Below are positions 1 through 18,386 of a DNA stretch of 34,103 nt, piece by piece. The DNA comes from a bacterium HR16 (GTDB lineage Bacteria; Armatimonadota; HRBIN16): contig BEHS01000006.1 in NCBI GenBank assembly GCA_002898895.1, positions 1-34,103 on the forward strand, given 5' to 3'. How positions within the stretch are numbered: position 1 is the stretch's first letter; each line of letters starts with the position of its first letter. The position numbers and the translations under genes are program-made. Under the pieces are notes generated by a model. It ran no database searches. It saw only the letters and a list, made by a program, of their open reading frames with translations, and was not told the origin of the DNA.

Positions 1-47
1 CGGAGGGACTCGAACCCCCGACACTCAGCTCCGCAGTCTGATGCTCT
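1..47 (-). repeat. att-like partial copy of tRNA-Arg 3' region
   Basis: cggagggactcgaaccccc (1-19) identical to 7566-7584; 43 of 47 positions match 7566-7612; similarity stops after gatgctct. Confidence 0.8.
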
Positions 48-63
48 GTGTAGTAGCGGCATG

Positions 64-80
64 AACAGTACAACATGTTG
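64..80 (+). repeat. Left subterminal inverted repeat AACAGTACAACATGTTG
   Basis: Exact reverse complement of 7513-7529 at the other end of the element. Confidence 0.85.
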
Positions 81-146
81 GCAGTTCCAACTCCTCCGAG
101 CGGAGTACACACAATATGTTGCGTCAGCTTTGGAGGAAGGAACACG

Positions 147-1073
147 ATGCACACAAACACAAACCTTCAGATTCGCGTCACTGACACAAGCGCGTACTCT
201 CTGCACACGGCGGTTGAACTGTTCTGCGAAGACGCGCAAGCACGTGGACTAAGAGCAAGCACCGTGCGCTACTACCGAGACGCGCTGACACGGTTCGCCA
301 ACACCGTCGGTCTACCACTGGAACAGATTGACCACTTCACCATCCGACGCTACTTGCTACACCGCCAGCAGCAAGTGTCCAGTCTGCACACGGTGCACGG
401 CGACTTTCGCGCACTGCGTGCGTTTTTCACGTGGTGTGTGCGGAACGAACTGCTGAACACCAACCCCATGCTGAAAGTGCAAGCACCGCGTTGCGAAGTG
501 GTGACGAAGCCACCACTGACCACAGACGAGATTCAGCGCATTCTGGCAGCTTGTAGCGGTTCAGACTGGCTACAGCGACGTGACTACGCACTGGTGCTGG
601 TGTTGCTGGACACCGGGCTGCGCGTGTCTGAAGTGCAGCAGATGACGGTAGCAAATGGAACTGCCGAGACGTTCACGGTGCTTGGCAAGAACCGCCGTTC
701 GCGCTTAGTGTGTCTGTCTGCACAGACACGGTTGGCGGTGCGCAAGTATGTGCAAGCGTGTCCGTTCGCCATGAAGCCGGAATCTGCGCTGTGGCGTGGC
801 GTGAGTGGCGAACCGCTGACCGTGCACGGACTGCAAGAAGCGATTCAGCGCGTTGGCAAGCGTGCCGGACTGCAGCACCATCTTGGCTGTCACGTCTTCC
901 GGCGAACGTTCGCGGTGTTCAGTCTTCGTTCCGGCATGTCACTGGAACACTTGCGCGAGCTACTCGGACATCGCGACTTCCAGATGTTGAAGCACTACGT
1001 GCAGCTGGTAGAAACCGACTTGAAGACGGCGCACCAGCAGCACTCGCCGTTGAATCTTCTGAAAAAGCGTTAA
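147..1073 (+). CDS. int: Tyrosine recombinase/integrase
   Basis: N-terminal SAM-like core-binding region, LLDTGLRVSEV, HVFRRTFAVFSLRSGMSLEHLRELLGHRDFQMLKHYVQ (R..HxxR..H..Y). ORF opens at 75; ATG at 147 is a plausible start. Confidence 0.92.
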   Translation: MHTNTNLQIRVTDTSAYSLHTAVELFCEDAQARGLRASTVRYYRDALTRFANTVGLPLEQIDHFTIRRYLLHRQQQVSSLHTVHGDFRALRAFFTWCVRNELLNTNPMLKVQAPRCEVVTKPPLTTDEIQRILAACSGSDWLQRRDYALVLVLLDTGLRVSEVQQMTVANGTAETFTVLGKNRRSRLVCLSAQTRLAVRKYVQACPFAMKPESALWRGVSGEPLTVHGLQEAIQRVGKRAGLQHHLGCHVFRRTFAVFSLRSGMSLEHLRELLGHRDFQMLKHYVQLVETDLKTAHQQHSPLNLLKKR

Positions 1074-1075
1074 AC

Positions 1076-1687
1076 TCACGGCAGGCGCGTTGACGCGCCT
1101 GCCTCGCCATAAAAAGCGAAAGCCAATTCGATCAAGTGCTGCGGCACGGCAATCCAGCCACCGCGTCCGTCCGGTAGCAACCCCGCAACCGGTTCGTCAT
1201 CACCTTCGCGCATCTCTTCAAGTTCAGCCAACATCTGACGCAGTGGAAACTGCGCAATGTAGTGTAGCCACCGCCAGACACGACGGCGCACACGTGCTGG
1301 CGGTTCGCCATGAAGTCCAGCAATCTCGCGGATTGCCGCTTCTAGCGTGCATTTTCGCGCCGACACGACCGCAGCACACTGTTCGCAGTCGCTGAACCAT
1401 TCAATACACGGTGCGCAGTGTTCTCGCGTCGCGTAGTATGCACGGAAGCAAACGGCTGCAGACTGCAGACTACCGGTGTTTGAGAAAACGCGCAGTGCTG
1501 TCTGCGTCGCCGCCATGACGGCTTTGCGCATGACAGTTTGCGGACGTGTAGACAGCGTGAGTTTGCGCCGTAGCCACGAAGTGGTCTGTGCAGCAAGCCG
1601 ACGCGCGTCTTCCGGTGGCAACGATCGCCAGATGGCGTCTTCTGCTTTCTCCAGCTGCTCGTAAAATTGCTTTCGTGTGTGTTTCAT
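1076..1687 (-). CDS. Hypothetical protein with Cys motif HCAPC-x7-CEQC
   Basis: 203-aa ORF convergent with int; REHCAPCIEWFSDCEQCAAVVSARKC suggests a metal-binding knuckle. Confidence 0.65.
   Translation of the reverse strand: MKHTRKQFYEQLEKAEDAIWRSLPPEDARRLAAQTTSWLRRKLTLSTRPQTVMRKAVMAATQTALRVFSNTGSLQSAAVCFRAYYATREHCAPCIEWFSDCEQCAAVVSARKCTLEAAIREIAGLHGEPPARVRRRVWRWLHYIAQFPLRQMLAELEEMREGDDEPVAGLLPDGRGGWIAVPQHLIELAFAFYGEAGASTRLP
1080..1103. terminator. Perfect 10-bp hairpin between convergent genes
   Basis: GGCAGGCGCG-TTGA-CGCGCCTGCC; lacks an immediate T-tract, so intrinsic termination is uncertain. Confidence 0.5.
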
Positions 1688-1777
1688 TCCAGATGTGTGA
1701 CGTGTGAAAAGTGGTCGTAAAAAGTCGCCACAAAAATTGTAACATATGGCTGAGAACCTTGCAAGAGGTGAGATGGC

Positions 1778-1978
1778 GTGAAAAGACTGCTTAGTGCTGG
1801 CGACGTGGCGTCGACACTTGGTGTGTCGTACGAACGAGTAAGACAGCTTCGGCTGTGTGGCAAGCTACGCGCCGTGCGCGTCCGCAGCGGTTGGCTGTAC
1901 GACGCGCGGAGCGTGGAAGCATACCGGCAGCAACGTGAAGTGTGGCTTCGGAGGCGACGCCATGAAGACCGGCGTTGA
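1778..1978 (+). CDS. Small MerR/excisionase-like HTH DNA-binding protein
   Basis: LLSAGDVASTLGVSYERVRQLRLCGKLRAVRVRSGWLYDARSVEAYRQQR resembles HTH_17/excisionase; GTG start; overlaps the start of the downstream rep gene. Confidence 0.75.
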   Translation: MKRLLSAGDVASTLGVSYERVRQLRLCGKLRAVRVRSGWLYDARSVEAYRQQREVWLRRRRHEDRR

Positions 1979-4169
1979 CATCTTGGATTCAGCATTACGC
2001 TACGCGCGTTCTGGACTGTCGGTGCTGCCCATACGCGCCGACGGTTCCAAAGCACCGGCACTGCAGACTTGGCAACCGCTTCAGAAGCGATTGCCGACTG
2101 AAGACGAGCTTCGCGAATGGTTCGGCACCGGTGCACGGCGTGGCGTCGGTGTGGTGTGTGGCGCAGTGTCTGGTGGACTATACGCGCTCGACCTTGACGA
2201 CCTGAACATCGGCGAAGCGTTCATCACCGAGCTGCTGGCTTACGACAGCGAACTGTTGTTCACCATGCCGGAGTGTCGCACACCACGACCTGGCAAGCGA
2301 CTGTTCTTCCGGTATGATGGCGAACTGCACTCCACCGTGCTGGCGTACCGCGTGGACGCTGACGGACGGAAGCACGAGGCGATTGCGCTGATTGGAGATG
2401 GCAAGTACAGCATCGTGCCACCGACGCCAGCAGAGTGCCACGAGAACCGCAAGCCGTATGAGTGGGTACGCGGTGACTTAACCAGTGTGCCGACGGTGAC
2501 TGATGAACAGCTGGAAGACATTCTCGCACTGGCACGGCTGTTTGACGAAGCACCAAAGCAAGAAAACGCACCTCCGCGCGTCACCGGCGAAGCTCAGCGC
2601 GTTGGCGACCTCTACAACGCACAAGCGGACGTGTTGGAGTTGTTACAGCGTCACGGTTGGCGTGTTGCTGGCGGGCGTGGCGAGAACGTTTACTTGACTC
2701 GCCCGGGCAAACAGCGTGGTGTGTCGGCGTCATGGCATCCCCAGTTGAGCACGCTGTATGTGTTCACCACGAACGCGCCACCCTTTGAGGCAGGACGTGC
2801 TTACAGCGCGTTCGCCGTCTACGCTTTGCTGGAGCACGGTGGCGACTTCTCTGCTGCTGCGAAGGCACTGGCAAAGCAGTATATGGAACCCGAACGCCTT
2901 GCTCCACCGGTGGACTGGACTGGCTTCCTGCGTCCGTTGAAAGACGTGGAAGCAAAACCGGTGGAGTGGTTACTGCCGAACCTGCTGGCGCGAGGTGAGA
3001 TTACCATACTGGCAGGAGAAGCAGGCGCAGGCAAGACCACGCTTGCTCTGGAGATTGCCCACGCACTGACACGTGATGACACCACGCTAGGCGAACGTCC
3101 ACAATCGCAAGCACGTGTGGTGTGGCTACATTATGACCACAGCGACGAACGCATCCGTGAGAAGTATGAGCAGACCTACGGCGAGGAACCGGAGTTTATG
3201 ACTCCGGACATGAAGAAGCTGGAAGAAGCCGGTATGCTGCGATTGACGCCGGACACCGTACAGTTGTGGACGTCCATGCTGACCTCATACGGCGTGGAAT
3301 GCTTGATTGTGGACACGCTTAACGACTGGCTTGGCTGTGATGACACAGACAAGGAGAGCAAGGTGCGTCCGCTGATGAACGCGCTTCGCAAGCTGGTGGA
3401 ACAGACGGGTATTGCTGTGCTGGCAATTCACCATCCGAACAAGGCAAGTGCTCTGAAGCGTGTGACTGCACTGGCGAACAGTTACGTGTTCGGCGCGAAG
3501 GCAGACACGGTGGCACTGCTGGCAGACCCCGACGGCGAACCGTCGGCAACCGAAGTGGTGCTGCGTGTGGTGAAGTGCCGAAGTGGTGACCGGTGGCAAG
3601 CCACATACGCCAAGCAGTGGGGGAGGTTCGTACCACTTCGTGGTGAGCAACGTCCGCTGACGCTGCAAGAACGCATTATAGACTTCGTACGGACACATGG
3701 CGAGTGCTCTCGCAAACAGCTGCTGGAGAGTCTGGACGCTTCACGTGCCAGCATCGACCGCACACTGGCAACACTCGTGAGGTGCGGACGTTTAGTCACC
3801 AACACCGGCGGTTACCAGAACTTGGAACGCTACTACACACTACCACACGTAAAGATTCATTTTTCTCAAAGTGATGAGAAAATTGAGAAAATTGAGAACA
3901 TTGAGAAAATTGAGAACATTGAGAACAATGAGAACCCCACGAGTGGGCAATTTACTCAATTTACTCAATGTTCTCATGATTCTGAGGAAACTGAGAATCC
4001 GCGCGGAGATGGCGTACCAGACTACCGCACAGCTGTTATTCCGTTGCGTGCCGGTGTGGCAGCATGGTGCGACACTTGCGGATGTTCCATGTTACACGTG
4101 CTAACACGTGCTGGGCAGTGGCAGTGTGTCGGATGTGACAACACACGGGAGCTGCCAGATGAACGGTAG
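1962..4169 (+). CDS. Bifunctional primase-polymerase / RepA-like ATPase replication protein
   Basis: Prim-pol-like N-terminus (GLSVLPI..KAP..W, LDLDD, GDGKYSIVPPT); Walker A GEAGAGKTT; Walker B-like LIVDT; wHTH; C-terminal CDTCG-x11-QCVGCDN zinc motif. ATG 1962 is in frame with the ORF starting at 1857. Confidence 0.85.
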   Translation: MKTGVDILDSALRYARSGLSVLPIRADGSKAPALQTWQPLQKRLPTEDELREWFGTGARRGVGVVCGAVSGGLYALDLDDLNIGEAFITELLAYDSELLFTMPECRTPRPGKRLFFRYDGELHSTVLAYRVDADGRKHEAIALIGDGKYSIVPPTPAECHENRKPYEWVRGDLTSVPTVTDEQLEDILALARLFDEAPKQENAPPRVTGEAQRVGDLYNAQADVLELLQRHGWRVAGGRGENVYLTRPGKQRGVSASWHPQLSTLYVFTTNAPPFEAGRAYSAFAVYALLEHGGDFSAAAKALAKQYMEPERLAPPVDWTGFLRPLKDVEAKPVEWLLPNLLARGEITILAGEAGAGKTTLALEIAHALTRDDTTLGERPQSQARVVWLHYDHSDERIREKYEQTYGEEPEFMTPDMKKLEEAGMLRLTPDTVQLWTSMLTSYGVECLIVDTLNDWLGCDDTDKESKVRPLMNALRKLVEQTGIAVLAIHHPNKASALKRVTALANSYVFGAKADTVALLADPDGEPSATEVVLRVVKCRSGDRWQATYAKQWGRFVPLRGEQRPLTLQERIIDFVRTHGECSRKQLLESLDASRASIDRTLATLVRCGRLVTNTGGYQNLERYYTLPHVKIHFSQSDEKIEKIENIEKIENIENNENPTSGQFTQFTQCSHDSEETENPRGDGVPDYRTAVIPLRAGVAAWCDTCGCSMLHVLTRAGQWQCVGCDNTRELPDER
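3860..3976. repeat. Iteron-like array of 9-bp units, direct plus inverted, around a CCCACGAGTGGG palindrome
   Basis: Seven tandem units at 3875-3937 (TGAGAAAAT/TGAGAACAT and variants), spacer 3938-3949, three inverted units at 3950-3976 (ATTTACTCA x2, ATGTTCTCA), plus one upstream inverted unit near 3860. Confidence 0.85.
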
Positions 4170-5049
4170 ACGCTTATTGCTTTACACGGACGGCAGTGTG
4201 CGCAGTGGTGGACGCGGTGGCATCGGCGTTGTGCTGGTGGACGCGCAAAGCGGTTTGCCAGTCCGGCGGTTCGGCGAACCGCTGACGGAACCGGTGACCG
4301 TGAACGAGTGCGAGTATGTTGCGTTGCTTCGTGGACTTGAAGAAGCACGCAAGCTTGGCGCGAGCTGCGTGGAGTGCTACACGGATTCCAGTCTGGTGCA
4401 CGGGCAGATTGTGCTTGGGTGGCAGTGTAACCACGAGCACTTGCGCCGGTTGCGTGACCAGTGTTTGGAATTGCTGTCGCAGTTTCAATCGTGGACGCTG
4501 GAGCGCGTGGAAAGCCGGTTCAATCCGATGGCGCACACACTGGCAACCACCGCAAGCACGCAGAACCGAAAGCGGTTCTGGCGACGCAGTGCGGTTCACA
4601 TAGACACGAACACAACACAAGACGAAGGAGGTAACGAACACATGAAACTGGTGGTGACAGCACCGACACCGACGGTCTTGCCAGACGACGTGTACACCGT
4701 AGAACTGCTGGACGTGAAGGAGCAGACCGGAAACTACGGCGAGCAGTTCGTGTGGCTGTTGCGCGTGGCAAACGGCGAGTATGAGGGCATGGAACTGCGG
4801 GCGTGGACTAACGCCAGCACCGCACTCAGCGCGAAAGCGGTGAAGTGGGCAGCAGCTTTCAACGGCAAGCCCTACGCGCAAGGTGACACGGTGGACTTTG
4901 ACGCTTTGCGTGGCAAGCTGGCACGCGCGGTGGTGCAGACGAAACAGACGGCAGACGGACGCCAGTTTTCGCGTGTGACCGACATCTTGCCGGTGAAGAC
5001 CGCGAAGACGCCGGAAGACGACGATCCGTTCTCGTGGGAAGACGAGTAA
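4159..5049 (+). CDS. RNase HI-like domain in frame with C-terminal OB/SSB-like domain
   Basis: LLLYTDGSVRSGGRGGIGVVL, NECEYVALLRGLEEA, CYTDSSLVHGQI, RFNPMAHTLAT; no stop before MKLVVTAPTPTVLPDDVYTVELLDVKEQTGNYGEQFVWLLRV. Confidence 0.75.
   Translation: MNGRRLLLYTDGSVRSGGRGGIGVVLVDAQSGLPVRRFGEPLTEPVTVNECEYVALLRGLEEARKLGASCVECYTDSSLVHGQIVLGWQCNHEHLRRLRDQCLELLSQFQSWTLERVESRFNPMAHTLATTASTQNRKRFWRRSAVHIDTNTTQDEGGNEHMKLVVTAPTPTVLPDDVYTVELLDVKEQTGNYGEQFVWLLRVANGEYEGMELRAWTNASTALSAKAVKWAAAFNGKPYAQGDTVDFDALRGKLARAVVQTKQTADGRQFSRVTDILPVKTAKTPEDDDPFSWEDE
4642..5049 (+). CDS. Putative stand-alone ssDNA-binding (OB-fold-like) protein from an internal start
   Basis: AAGGAGG at 4625-4631 before ATG 4642; YTVELLDVKEQTGNYGEQFVWLLRV and the acidic C-terminus EDDDPFSWEDE resemble phage SSB-like proteins. 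Confidence 0.65.
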   Translation: MKLVVTAPTPTVLPDDVYTVELLDVKEQTGNYGEQFVWLLRVANGEYEGMELRAWTNASTALSAKAVKWAAAFNGKPYAQGDTVDFDALRGKLARAVVQTKQTADGRQFSRVTDILPVKTAKTPEDDDPFSWEDE

Positions 5050-5064
5050 CCGACAAAAAACACC

Positions 5065-5092
5065 GGACTGGTGGCGCAGACGCCACCAGTCC
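5065..5092 (-). terminator. Perfect 12-bp hairpin with A-tract upstream (T-tract on minus strand)
   Basis: GGACTGGTGGCG-CAGA-CGCCACCAGTCC preceded by gacaaaaaacacc; read on minus, the hairpin is followed by ggTGTTTTTTGTC. Confidence 0.5.
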
Positions 5093-5127
5093 ACACGAAC
5101 ACACAACACAGAAAGGAGTTTCGGAAC

Positions 5128-5481
5128 ATGAACGCGATTCAACATGGCAACGTGGTGCACCTTCTGCTGGCTGACGGACGTCCAAGCGGTTGCGTGCTGG
5201 ACGGTTGGCGACTGGTGCGACGTGTTCGCGGTTCGGTGCACATGCTGAAGCGTCCGCCAGCATGGAGTTTTGAGTTGGGCATTCTGGAAGCAGCACACGA
5301 AGCGCGTGTGTCGGTGGTGGAAGTTTGCGACGTGGAAACCGGCGTTACTTACACCGCACCGTTGCCGTCGCTGTGGCGACACGGCATCCGCATCCAACGC
5401 GACGGCACGCAGCAGCTGGCGTTGGAGTTGCGTTTCTGGCACGTGCACAATCCGCGCCAACCGACGCTGTTCGATGCTTGA
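5128..5481 (+). CDS. Hypothetical protein
   Basis: GAAAGGAG before ATG 5128; MNAIQHGNVVHLLLADGRPSGCVLDGW... Confidence 0.65.
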   Translation: MNAIQHGNVVHLLLADGRPSGCVLDGWRLVRRVRGSVHMLKRPPAWSFELGILEAAHEARVSVVEVCDVETGVTYTAPLPSLWRHGIRIQRDGTQQLALELRFWHVHNPRQPTLFDA

Positions 5482-5526
5482 CAAAATGGCGGTGAAAATC
5501 GTACACTAAACCAGGAGGTACCGAAC

Positions 5527-5793
5527 ATGGACATTCAAGCCAAAATCGCGATTTTGGAACTGCAGCAAAGTCGCTTTGAGCCGTCTTTCAGCGAGACCGA
5601 AAAATTCAGCGCGTTGAACGACGTTGTGCAGCTGGTGCGCCAGATTGAGCGCGAGCTGCAGCAGCTGGACGCTTCTGGCGACTGGCACACGCAAGCGCGT
5701 GCGGTGACACTGCGCGGACGCTTTCAGATGGCACTCCAGCAGCTGGCAGCAGCTGGCGTGTCCGTGCCACTGCCGACGGGGGTGACAGTATGA
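5527..5793 (+). CDS. Hypothetical helical protein
   Basis: AGGAGGT upstream; Q/E-rich helical sequence; ATGA overlap with the next ORF. Confidence 0.7.
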   Translation: MDIQAKIAILELQQSRFEPSFSETEKFSALNDVVQLVRQIERELQQLDASGDWHTQARAVTLRGRFQMALQQLAAAGVSVPLPTGVTV

Positions 5794-6287
5794 GCTACCA
5801 GCAAGCGTTGGAACGAGTGCGCCAGTTGCTTGACGAGTGGCGCGAACTGCTGCAAGCTGAACCGCGTCTGCTTGCGAGCGGTGACCGCGAAACTGTGTTG
5901 GACACACTAACGCGCAAGCATTCGTTACCACACGAGGTGCACCGTGCCATCGTGGAATGCGCCAAAGCTGGCGCGGACTTCTATAGCGAACTCGCAGGTG
6001 CTGAAGAAGCGGAAATCCAGCAGCTGGACGGCGAACTCGAGCCACTGCTGGCGGAGTTGGCTGAGTTGCAACGGCGCGTTGACCGGTTGCTGCGACTGCG
6101 ACGCGGACACGAGCACCGGCTGACCGCGCTGAAAAGTTACGCACGCGACGCACGCGCTTTGACCGGTTTAGACCAGTCGCGCGTGCAGACACCGCAAGAC
6201 GCCGAGCAGTGGCTTCGCCGTCTGCCACCGCCGGAGGAGCCAGCACCGGCGGAACCGGTGGAGAAACTTTTCGCTAACAAAAGTTGA
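5790..6287 (+). CDS. Hypothetical coiled-coil protein
   Basis: 4-nt overlap with the preceding ORF; EEAEIQQLDGELEPLLAELAELQRRVDRLLRLRRGHEHRL. Confidence 0.7.
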   Translation: MSYQQALERVRQLLDEWRELLQAEPRLLASGDRETVLDTLTRKHSLPHEVHRAIVECAKAGADFYSELAGAEEAEIQQLDGELEPLLAELAELQRRVDRLLRLRRGHEHRLTALKSYARDARALTGLDQSRVQTPQDAEQWLRRLPPPEEPAPAEPVEKLFANKS

Positions 6288-6321
6288 CAAAGTTGACACC
6301 ATAAAAAAAAGGAGTAGTGCA

Positions 6322-6666
6322 ATGCGCGGAGACTGGAAGCAGACTTTCCTGGCAGCACTGTCGCGCGGATGCACCGTCTCGCTGTCTGCCAAACTGGCAG
6401 GCGTGTCGCGCCAGGCAGCTTACAAAGCGCGTGCACGCAGCAGAACGTTCGCCGATGCGTGGCAAGACGCTTTGGAGAGTGGCACGGACGTGCTGGAAGA
6501 CGAAGCGGTTCGCCGTGCACTTGCTGGTAGCGACACTCTGCTGATGTTCTTGCTGAAAGCGAGGCGTCCGGAGAAGTTTCGTGACAACGTTCGTGTTGAA
6601 CACGACGCCGGACGCGAGATGCTGACCGCACTGGAGCAAGCAATCAAAAGTGTTCAGTCACCATGA
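6322..6666 (+). CDS. TerS-like small terminase / phage HTH protein
   Basis: GCTVSLSAKLAGVSRQAAYKARARSRTFADAWQDALE...GSDTLLMFLLKARRPEKFRDNVRVE matches the common phage small-terminase/HTH pattern. Confidence 0.7.
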   Translation: MRGDWKQTFLAALSRGCTVSLSAKLAGVSRQAAYKARARSRTFADAWQDALESGTDVLEDEAVRRALAGSDTLLMFLLKARRPEKFRDNVRVEHDAGREMLTALEQAIKSVQSP

Positions 6667-6682
6667 CCTCGCTCGTTCTTGC

Positions 6683-7438
6683 ATGACCACAGTCCATACC
6701 CCCACCGCCGGTAGCGGTCGAGAACCGGCAACGGTGGGGGAACTTTTTTTACCGCCAGACTGGTTTCCGACGTGTTCCGTCCGGCGCGTCGTGGTGCACA
6801 GCGCGACCGTGTGCGAACCGCTTGACGACTTGCTGCCGTGCTACCACTTTCTGATTGCCAAGTCCGGCGCGGTAGCGCGTGGACTGTTCTCATTGGCTGA
6901 CAACGCTTCGCCACAGCGCGGACGTGGCTACGCCAGACACACAGCGCGTCACAACATCGGTAGTGCCGGTGTGCTTGTGCTTGGTGGCGGTGCGCCGAAC
7001 GAACGGCAGTGGCACAGTCTGGTGGCGTTGTGTCGTTTGCTGTGTTCGCGCTACCAGCTGGACGCAACCGACGTGGTGACGCACGCGGAGATTGAACCGG
7101 ACACAAACGACTTGCCGGAACTTGGCGACGCACTGCGTGCAGCAGTCGCAGCAGCACCGTTGCCAGAATGTGACCGTGAGGAGCCGCCAGCTTACTCCTT
7201 CGTGGACGCCAACGGCAAGCGTCTGGTAGCCAGGTTGGACGGTGGCGACGTGTGGTTACCACGCGCCAGCTGTGCGCGTTTGTTTGGCGACGTCGGCGAC
7301 GCGCCGACACAGAAGCACGTCATCTACGGCGTCCTGTCCGTGTGCGTGCCGTTACGCCATGTGCTGGCACGCTTGCACAGACACGTGGAGTATGACGCCA
7401 GAAAAAACAGCTTGGTGCTGCAGGAACTTGAGGAGTGA
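6683..7438 (+). CDS. N-acetylmuramoyl-L-alanine amidase (Amidase_2/PGRP-like)
   Basis: VVVHSAT, CYHFLIAKSGAVARG, HTARHNIGSAGVLVLGG, QWHSLVALCRLLCSRY, VVTHAEIEPDTNDLPE. Start ambiguous (6650, 6683 or GTG 6734). Confidence 0.78.
   Translation: MTTVHTPTAGSGREPATVGELFLPPDWFPTCSVRRVVVHSATVCEPLDDLLPCYHFLIAKSGAVARGLFSLADNASPQRGRGYARHTARHNIGSAGVLVLGGGAPNERQWHSLVALCRLLCSRYQLDATDVVTHAEIEPDTNDLPELGDALRAAVAAAPLPECDREEPPAYSFVDANGKRLVARLDGGDVWLPRASCARLFGDVGDAPTQKHVIYGVLSVCVPLRHVLARLHRHVEYDARKNSLVLQELEE
6699..6750 (+). terminator. Bipartite hairpin followed by T7, overlapping the amidase 5' region
   Basis: CCCCCACCG-CCGGT...ACCGG-CAA-CGGTGGGGG-AAC-TTTTTTT. Confidence 0.75.
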
Positions 7439-7512
7439 ATGTCTAAGTTGGCACTGGCGTGGTGTGCACACCGTGACCGTCAGATTCGTTCAAACTGTCA
7501 CACGTCGGAACA

Positions 7513-7529
7513 CAACATGTTGTACTGTT
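7513..7529 (-). repeat. Right subterminal inverted repeat
   Basis: caacatgttgtactgtt is the exact reverse complement of 64-80. Confidence 0.85.
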
Positions 7530-7556
7530 TCTGGCTGTGGGCTACTACATGTAGTA

Positions 7557-7632
7557 TGGCGCGCCCGGAGGGACTCGAACCCCCAACCCTCAGATCCGAA
7601 GTCTGATGCTCTATCCATTGAGCTACGGGCGC
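7557..7632 (-). tRNA. tRNA-Arg (anticodon TCG), CCA encoded
   Basis: Reverse complement folds as a cloverleaf: GCGCCCG/CGGGCGC acceptor, anticodon loop CTTCGGA, T-arm GGGGG-TTCGAGT-CCCTC, then GCCA. Confidence 0.93.
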
Positions 7633-16370: not shown

Positions 16371-18386
16371 ATGTGCCGCAGAATATTGTGCATGATGGTT
16401 ACCGGGGTGGTTCTGTTCTCCTTACAGGTATCGTGTGCGCCTTCGGTGACCCTGTCCGACCTGCTGAAGCAGATGGTAGACCTCGAGGCGTTAAGCCTCA
16501 AACCCCTTCCGGGTGAGCGGTGCAATCAGGCATCCAGCTACGACCGCGCCAGCCGCATTGTGGACGGCAAAAAAGTGGACTGGTTCGCCAACGGCGACGC
16601 CGGGCAGTATATCCGCATCGAGGAGCGCAACGGGCGCAGGGAGATGGTGATGGCGGATATCCCGGGACCGGGCGCGATCGTGCGCATCTGGTCGGCGAAC
16701 CCGAAGGGGGTGCTGCGCATCTACATCGACGGCGCGGAGAAGCCGGTGATTGAACGGGAGTTTCCCAAACTGTTCGATGGTTCGCAGGGGTATCCATTTG
16801 TGCATCCGTTTGCGGGCGTGCACTCCAGCGGAGCAAACATCTATTTCCCCATTCCCTTTGCCAGACGTGCGCTGGTCACCGTAGAGGGCGGCGAAGGGAT
16901 GTACTATCACGTGAACTATCGCCTCTATCCGCCCGGCACGCAGGTGGAAAGCTTCTCCTGGCAGGCGGTAGAGCGTACGCGCAAGCTGGGCGAAGAGGTG
17001 GCGCGACGTCTGGCGAAACCATACGAAACGTGGCGTGCACCGTCCGGCTCGCAGACCCATTCCATTCGCTGGAGCATTCCTCCGGGTGGCTCGCGGGTGC
17101 TGAATCTGCAGGGACCGGCACGCATCGTGGCAATAGAGATGAAACCTCAGGCGAAGGACCTGCAAAAGGCTCTGAGAGCGGCGGTGCTGGAAATCACGTG
17201 GGATAACGCCATGTTGCCCTCTGTGTGGTCTCCACTCGGCGATTTCTTCGGCACGGGACCCGGCTTGAACCCCTATCAGGCGTTACCCTGCGGAGTGCTG
17301 GAAAACGGGACGATGTACAGCCACTGGGTAATGCCCTTTGTCTGGCGGGCGGTGCTGCGTGTGCGCAATGAGGGCGATGAAACGCTGAACCTGTCGGGTA
17401 GGGTGATAGTGCAGCCTATGCGCTGGAGCGACCGCTGGATGCACTTCCACGCGCAGTGGCATACGCAATATCCCATCCGCACCCGCCCAATGCGCGACTG
17501 GACGATGGCAGAGGCGTGGGGAACGGGACGTTTTGTGGGCGTGGCATTGAGTGTGGCAAACCCTGTCAAGGTCTGGTGGGGCGAGGGCGACGAGAAGTTT
17601 TACGTAGACGGTGAGGAGTTTCCCAGCACCTTCGGCACCGGTACGGAAGACTTCTTCGGCTACGCCTGGGGCAACCCGACGCCTTTCACCCATGCCTACC
17701 ACAACCAGCCCCGCGCGGACGGTCCGGGCAGCTACGGACACGTGTCCAACAACCGCTTCTTTATTATCGACAACGTGCCGTTCCAGAAGAGCTTCCGTGC
17801 GGATATCGAGGTATGGCACTGGGCAGAGGTGGAGGTCAGCTACAGCGCAATTGGTTACTGGTATGCCGACAGCGAGCAAGGAGCACGGAGCTTTCCCTCT
17901 TTGCAGGAGCGACTGCCGGTGCGGCTGCCCGAACTGAAAGTATATCGCGAGCCTGGCGCCATCGAGGGCGAGGGGATGAAGGTTTTACGACGCACCGGCG
18001 GCAACACCACCACGCAGGATATGCAGGGCTTCGGTGAAGCGTGGAGCGGTGGAGCGCAGCTGTGGTGGACGGGCGCAAAGCCGGGCGATGTGCTGGAACT
18101 GGCATTCGACGCGGAGAAGGCAGGCACGTATGAGCTGGTTATCGCGATGACCAAAGCGGTGGACTACGGACAGTTCCGTCTATCGGTGAACGGCGTGCCG
18201 GTCGGTGATGTGATAGACCTGTTCAACAACGGCGTGATACACACCGGTAAAATCGGCATGGGGAAGGTGCAGTTGAAGCAGGGACAGAACATGCTGCGCG
18301 TCGATGTGGTAGGCACGAACCCTGCCAGCACCGGCGATCGCTACATGTTCGGGCTGGATTTCATCAAGATAGTGCCGGCGCAGTAA
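16371..18386 (+). CDS. DUF2961-like secreted/lipoprotein, putative carbohydrate-active
   Basis: Signal peptide with Cys; DIPGPGAIVRIWSANPKGVLRIYIDGAEKPVIE; FPSTFGTGTEDFFGYAWG; ends in a CBM-like region. Confidence 0.75.
   Translation: MCRRILCMMVTGVVLFSLQVSCAPSVTLSDLLKQMVDLEALSLKPLPGERCNQASSYDRASRIVDGKKVDWFANGDAGQYIRIEERNGRREMVMADIPGPGAIVRIWSANPKGVLRIYIDGAEKPVIEREFPKLFDGSQGYPFVHPFAGVHSSGANIYFPIPFARRALVTVEGGEGMYYHVNYRLYPPGTQVESFSWQAVERTRKLGEEVARRLAKPYETWRAPSGSQTHSIRWSIPPGGSRVLNLQGPARIVAIEMKPQAKDLQKALRAAVLEITWDNAMLPSVWSPLGDFFGTGPGLNPYQALPCGVLENGTMYSHWVMPFVWRAVLRVRNEGDETLNLSGRVIVQPMRWSDRWMHFHAQWHTQYPIRTRPMRDWTMAEAWGTGRFVGVALSVANPVKVWWGEGDEKFYVDGEEFPSTFGTGTEDFFGYAWGNPTPFTHAYHNQPRADGPGSYGHVSNNRFFIIDNVPFQKSFRADIEVWHWAEVEVSYSAIGYWYADSEQGARSFPSLQERLPVRLPELKVYREPGAIEGEGMKVLRRTGGNTTTQDMQGFGEAWSGGAQLWWTGAKPGDVLELAFDAEKAGTYELVIAMTKAVDYGQFRLSVNGVPVGDVIDLFNNGVIHTGKIGMGKVQLKQGQNMLRVDVVGTNPASTGDRYMFGLDFIKIVPAQ

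Follow-up and report, generated by a model that had tools for sequence, protein, structure and literature searches.

A probable phage satellite from a new PICI-like family, integrated at tRNA-Arg in Armatimonadota

The DNA analysed here, which we call the window, comprises the 34,103 nucleotides at positions 1 to 34,103 of contig BEHS01000006.1 (C6) from bacterium HR16, a member of the phylum Armatimonadota, and its first 7,565 positions hold a compact element of ten genes integrated at a tRNA-Arg gene (G, C and L numbers below are our labels for genomes, contigs and loci, HR16 being G000). The ten genes, which give this part of the window a coding density of 0.93, were translated and scanned against Pfam and PHROGs. 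At the left end lies int (147-1073, + strand), encoding a tyrosine integrase of ~308 residues (PF00589, E 1.4e-27; phrog_1, E 1.5e-44), followed by orf2 (1076-1687, - strand), whose 203-residue product has no family match in these scans, shares ~72% identity with its counterparts in relatives, and is oriented divergently from the genes to its right. The first of these is xis (1778-1978, + strand), encoding a 66-residue HTH_17 protein of the excisionase/AlpA type (PF12728, E 2.3e-6; phrog_66, E 2.3e-6), and the 90-bp intergenic region between orf2 and xis (1688-1777) is a candidate regulatory switch judging by its sequence. There follow on the + strand a 735-residue primase-helicase that joins a PrimPol domain (PF09250, E 1.6e-19) to an AAA_25 helicase (PF13481, E 5.9e-31), a winged helix-turn-helix and a cysteine-rich C-terminus (1962-4169), an RNase H-SSB gene in a single frame (4159-5049; PF13456, E 1.9e-16; phrog_378, E 0.004), orf6 (5128-5481; 117 residues), orf7 (5527-5793), which encodes a small helical protein of 88 residues, orf8 (5790-6287), which encodes a coiled-coil-like protein of 165 residues, terS (6322-6666), which encodes a 114-residue terminase small subunit (TerS), and finally a 262-residue Amidase_2 protein of the N-acetylmuramoyl-L-alanine amidase type with an additional C-terminal domain (6650-7438; PF01510, E 1.4e-7). 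The scans revealed no gene for a large terminase subunit (TerL), portal, capsid or tail in 1-7565, no relaxase or conjugation gene among the window proteins by which an integrative conjugative or mobilizable element would be recognized, and no defence-system match of weight, apart from a single weak ATPase match. An original prediction, made from the letters alone, had named the integrase, helix-turn-helix, primpol/helicase, RNase H, SSB, TerS and amidase genes at these places and had noted the lack of structural genes in ~7.5 kb, and both statements agree with the Pfam and PHROGs results.

The right end of the element abuts an intact tRNA-Arg(TCG) gene (7557-7632, - strand; ARAGORN, Rfam), which is the integration site, as had been predicted. 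Its left end starts with the element-side part of attL, a copy of the 3' half of that gene (1-47, - strand; repeat search, blastn E 1.1e-12), which is 91% identical to the tRNA-Arg 3' half; the initial 19 bases are identical, and the four mismatches fall in the anticodon-to-variable-loop part, the T-arm side being exact. Base 1 of the window is also base 1 of C6, and the contig begins within this left copy. To look for the left flank in the same assembly we used the corresponding flanking sequence of G009, the closest relative, and found that the initial 17 bases of contig C210, TCCCTCCGGGCGCGCCA, are the tRNA-Arg 3' end missing from C6, after which comes a cluster of tRNA-Phe, -Asp and -Val genes that adjoins tRNA-Arg in G009 likewise. 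We infer that C6 and C210 are joined at the left att junction with an 8-bp overlap; once C210 is added, the shared att core is 29 bp, and the attR core (7556-7584, - strand) matches the reconstructed attL exactly. The left neighbour of the element is therefore this host tRNA cluster on C210, and no structural genes were found there. Just inside both ends sit the two copies of a 17-bp terminal inverted repeat, AACAGTACAACATGTTG on the left (64-80, + strand) and its 100% complementary right copy (7513-7529, - strand), which are candidate integrase arm sites.

Attachment is thus specific, with exact repeats also flanking relatives, and the same tRNA-Arg gene was found empty in G001, G002 and G007. 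The G003 copy of the gene is occupied by another element, 6.0 kb long, whose integrase is 79% identical and whose exact repeats measure 56 bp. As a side observation, the element at L037 (same tRNA-Arg, integrases 79% identical) lies in the opposite orientation, so that the integrase is adjacent to the tRNA in L037 and far from it in the window. At the tRNA-Arg site of G009 we observed a short stretch (L082:2638-2720) that resembles the right end of the element only and is probably a deletion scar.

TerS is firmly assigned. It matches phrog_4044 (E 5.5e-23) and annotated phage terminase small subunits as well as the TerS structures of phage Sf6 (gp1, 3hef, E 2e-8 by profile), and the match covers most of its length, including a C-terminal PEKFRDNV segment common to phage TerS. 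The end of the element that carries it is a conserved unit: an orf8-terS-amidase module is common to at least 8 elements of the window's genus whose int and primase parts differ, orf7 is kept beside orf8-terS in L036 and L223-L226, and strong matches to the orf8 (A8) profile occur only beside satellite terS genes among 291 Armatimonadota genomes. In the pairs that could be computed, terS gave dN/dS values of 0.10-0.37 and the amidase values of 0.10-0.34, ratios which indicate that the module is under purifying selection. Residues H50, H145 and D154 of the amidase are invariant in five element amidases and are likely zinc ligands. Because the module is shared across elements, is under purifying selection and keeps its putative zinc ligands, the amidase is, as far as such comparisons go, a regular component of the packaging end in elements from this genus and not stray cargo; its earlier description as an unusual cargo does not hold.

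To place the element among its relatives, we used primase, orf6 and TerS as queries against the window's genus (ten genomes) and the 291 Armatimonadota genomes, and retrieved the matching loci. This yielded 21 elements bounded by tRNA-end repeats, 6.0-8.8 kb in size with one of 12.2 kb (median 7.0 kb), at tRNA genes of ten isotypes (Arg, Gly, Leu, Lys, Thr, Met, Ala, Val, Glu and Asn), with approximately 6 elements each in G003 and G005. The closest set comprises elements from the window's genus and from one other family (G200, G208, G212), while looser relatives recovered through the orf6 profile reach further families, and not all of these have a recognizable primase or TerS of the window kind. 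A search for the same gene order at tRNA genes of relatives had been suggested, and indeed the tRNA-Gly element L036 of G003 possesses all ten genes in the same order as the window. Movement appears recent, in that a pair of copies in G005 shares 99.9% identity across 8.4 kb, and L034 (G005) and L035 (G003), from two species, are 97.0% identical over 7.0 kb, compared with 93% and 87% for two tested host genes. Furthermore, the orf7-orf8-terS-amidase ends of L036 and L225 are 96% identical whereas their int genes and targets differ, from which the elements are seen to exchange parts. Near-identical satellite copies (99.6-99.9%), at least two in number, were also observed at contig ends in G005 (L220, L221 and L222), one of them beside tRNA-Lys. 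A second element start was noticed in the window's own genome at the end of contig C51 (L040:8950-9136), where an excisionase-like gene precedes a primase start with 92% DNA identity to that of the window, truncated where the contig stops. The window primase, used directly as a query against IMG/VR, gave no match. Primase relatives in Planctomycetota, Actinomycetota and Myxococcota were considered as family members and rejected, no other element genes being found nearby save a distant integrase in two.

Within the 3' part of the primase gene we located a candidate origin (3863-3997; repeat search, synonymous-codon shuffle) composed of two inverted arrays of ~9-bp iterons, the TTGAGAAxA type first and then the CTCAATTTA type, in a patch whose GC content is 35% versus 57% for the gene. 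Many elements possess 8-9-bp tandem repeats in the same primase linker, differing in sequence from element to element and often laid out as an array and then the reverse complement of that array. When synonymous codons were permuted with the protein repeats retained (200 shuffles), the observed iteron value was reached in 0/200 shuffles for the window and six other elements and in 1-2/200 for three more; ten elements gave no significant iteron signal in this test. For the window, exact 7-mer counts over the whole primase gene gave no signal, and the local 6-mer test in which it is positive was chosen after that null, so its value is to be read together with those of the relatives that pass both. 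Because synonymous shuffling destroys the pattern, the arrays are not explained by the primase codons and, as judged by these shuffles, are a selected DNA pattern and not a codon by-product. By analogy they may act as a replication origin. In phage-inducible chromosomal islands (PICIs) the origin has an AT-rich region with a set of iterons on either side and lies beside the replication gene (PMC6092414); two sets in a low-GC patch are likewise present here, although they lie inside the primase gene, whereas in PICIs they lie 3' of it (PMC6092414).

Taken together, and from sequence alone, we think it likely that the element belongs to a new, PICI-like family of phage satellites that live in Armatimonadota. 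This reading follows from a TerS without TerL or structural genes in an element closed at both ends, from the many bounded elements with repeated gene order, a module under selection, empty sites and recent copies, and from phages of the same phylum that have this TerS type beside TerL. Because the element lacks particle genes of its own and possesses a DNA-marking TerS, it probably uses the particles of a virus. Three findings had been named in advance that would speak against such a satellite, and each came out otherwise: the host tRNA cluster of C210, not structural genes, stands upstream of position 1; TerS falls in phage TerS families and resembles the Sf6 structures; and the locus has moved, given the empty tRNA-Arg sites, the use of other tRNA sites, the near-identical copies and the 97% identity in two species. 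In the mechanism we propose, Int would recombine the 29-bp core at the tRNA-Arg 3' end in a way that restores the tRNA, as the anatomy of the site shows, and the divergent orf2/xis switch would silence the element until a helper arrives. The product of orf2 is a candidate repressor, its predicted structure being helical at low confidence in a model too poor to be used. The PrimPol-helicase would then initiate replication at the iteron origin in its own gene with RNase H and SSB assisting, TerS would pick element DNA and hand it to the large terminase and head of the helper, and the satellite-only orf7 and orf8 products and the amidase may join TerS in packaging, head or lysis steps. The helper would most likely be a tailed phage whose TerL resembles those that adjoin this TerS type in other phages.

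How the element relates to known satellites can be assessed gene by gene. In general terms it has what satellites have, namely integration and replication genes and att boundaries without a full structural set. P4-like and capsid-forming PICI (cf-PICI) satellites depend on helpers for packaging and replicate on their own; neither the Sid, Psu, delta and epsilon genes of P4 nor the own capsid, portal and TerL of cf-PICIs had a match in Pfam or PHROGs. Tycheposons are tRNA-integrated tyrosine-recombinase elements, some with packaging genes and some with capsid genes. Compared by description only, the element resembles them in its tRNA site and tyrosine recombinase and differs in its hosts and from the capsid genes of some; the tycheposons of Prochlorococcus have been named a proposed satellite family (PMC11389934). 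The likeness to PICIs is in the plan, with int at one end, a regulator in the divergent position, an excisionase/AlpA-type protein, a primase, iterons (here a candidate origin) and then terS (PMC6092414), in specific att sites and in the absence of structural genes. In contrast, the primase here is PrimPol plus AAA_25 where that of PICIs is pri-rep, the element targets tRNA genes in an Armatimonadota host, it possesses the amidase and satellite-only orf6-orf8, and its family has a median size of 7.0 kb versus a PICI average of 9.5 kb (PMC10803314). PICI capsid-morphogenesis genes had no match in Pfam or PHROGs, dedicated PICI models not having been run. The Vibrio PICMIs are similarly small (~6 kb) and combine int, an HTH_17/AlpA-type gene and a primase (PMC10803314), but their model demands int, AlpA and a DUF3987/DUF5906 primase at fis (PMC10803314), and here neither DUF is among the matches listed for the window and the site is a tRNA gene; moreover the element has terS, while the word 'terminase' appears nowhere in the PICMI paper (PMC10803314). 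Gene homology thus places the element outside the PICMIs, P4 and the cf-PICIs, and its primase differs in kind from that of PICIs. The part of the original prediction that called it PICI-like stands for organization and probable function, whereas homology does not identify it as a PICI, its primase being of a different family. Finding the same plan with another primase family and intragenic iterons sets what satellites have in common by function (int, a regulator, a primase with iterons, TerS) apart from what they inherit. It also extends phage satellites to Armatimonadota, where they are abundant, with approximately 6 in some genomes and ten tRNA isotypes in use. The host lineage does lie outside the Firmicutes and Proteobacteria, as had been suspected, and we found no description of Armatimonadota satellites or gene transfer agents in the open-access literature, a non-exhaustive search on which we base no claim of priority.

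Several observations weigh against a satellite. The left att junction is split over two contigs, C6 and C210; an assembly break at an attachment site could be caused by a population in which some sites are filled and others empty, without this amounting to proof. In the wider family TerS does not occur throughout, as some relatives possess an endonuclease (L172, L179) or no recognized packaging gene in its stead. Lastly, the search for a helper, proposed earlier as a check, gave no phage with matching TerS/TerL among the ten genomes that represent the genus. TerS of the window type has TerL as its neighbour in viral contigs and in phages of Armatimonadota (L008, L230, L228), with 45% TerS identity in L228 and 42% in L230. 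The absence of TerS from some relatives, and the occurrence of relatives of either primase-helicase half on plasmids, would fit an integrative mobilizable element or integrative plasmid that is never packaged and whose TerS-like protein is merely a DNA-binding regulator. We think this improbable, since the window scans gave no relaxase or conjugation gene, the TerS match extends over most of the protein to PEKFRDNV, and terS and the amidase are retained together in at least 8 elements. A decayed prophage that has lost its structural genes would account for an integrase, TerS and amidase all of phage type, yet we give it almost no credence: disrupted genes, a lack of parallel elements and relaxed selection were not what we found, but the same compact set, of similar size and with exact att repeats, in many genomes, with dN/dS well below 1 and recent copies, and a truly decayed relative (L035, primase split) looks different. 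In arguing against decay the original prediction was right.

A further alternative arises from conserved head genes of the phylum, which raise the question of gene transfer agents as helpers. Of the 291 Armatimonadota genomes, 129 have TerL relatives and 144 have Portal_Mu, mostly in single copy and in several families next to protease and capsid genes; in the window's genus the conserved TerL stands at one locus and a head cluster with portal and capsid at another. The head genes of G000, G003 and G005 are under strong purifying selection, with dN/dS values of 0.035-0.11, similar to the 0.08 of a host control gene, and the set is probably a gene transfer agent or a domesticated prophage. The elements could accordingly be satellites of such an endogenous particle, with TerS recruiting the Mu-like head (TerL, portal, capsid), which is passed on vertically. 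In favour of this are the prevalence and constraint of these genes, the conserved TerL being the sole phrog_2 match in G005 with its ~6 elements, and the fit of a ~7-kb element to a small head; if true, bacteria-owned particles would spread selfish islands. Nevertheless we regard it as unlikely, as the conserved set is known here from genes alone and its TerL forms its own clade, outside of which fall the phage TerLs paired with this TerS type (L008, L230, L227, L228). Because of that separation a phage helper is the better bet for the satellite we propose. The conserved TerL was also considered as the gene of a helper prophage and rejected, being a conserved chromosomal gene.

Some observations concern the head genes and phages themselves. 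The genes for TerL, portal, protease and capsid of a Mu-like head are seen at L248:9154-15643 (G226), and in the window's own genome TerL lies at L077:3604-4950 and portal and capsid at L271:10038-11132 and 16942-17868. G003 has other phages or prophages, and two phage contigs binned with it (L090 and L091, on its contigs C8 and C6) contain several in-frame TGA/TAG codons in their TerL match regions, possibly recoding or mere alignment read-through. In L172 (9386-9838) and L179 (9101-9421) an endonuclease/resolvase-like gene (phrog_93, E 4e-18 and 3e-14) occupies the terS position, a hint of another route of packaging or resolution.

Of the remaining genes, orf6 encodes a marker protein of the Armatimonadota element family, whose profile (A4) matches in 19/291 of the genomes and for which no match was found among 50,697 phage records; together with orf8 and the terS-amidase module it can serve as a marker for metagenome searches. 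Its predicted fold (pLDDT 77, from two sequences) is weakly like nuclease-type folds (SPARDA, fusellovirus D212; best PDB E 0.003), so that its acting as a nuclease or resolvase is no more than a lead. The RNase H and SSB domains at 4159-5049 have no stop between them and are not two genes, an arrangement also present in L039, L171 and L173, SSB standing alone in L036, L037 and L172. A strong Shine-Dalgarno-like AAGGAGG inside the frame is followed by an ATG at ~4642, before the SSB part, and because of it we suggest that SSB is also made alone, the gene likely giving two products, the fused protein and free SSB.

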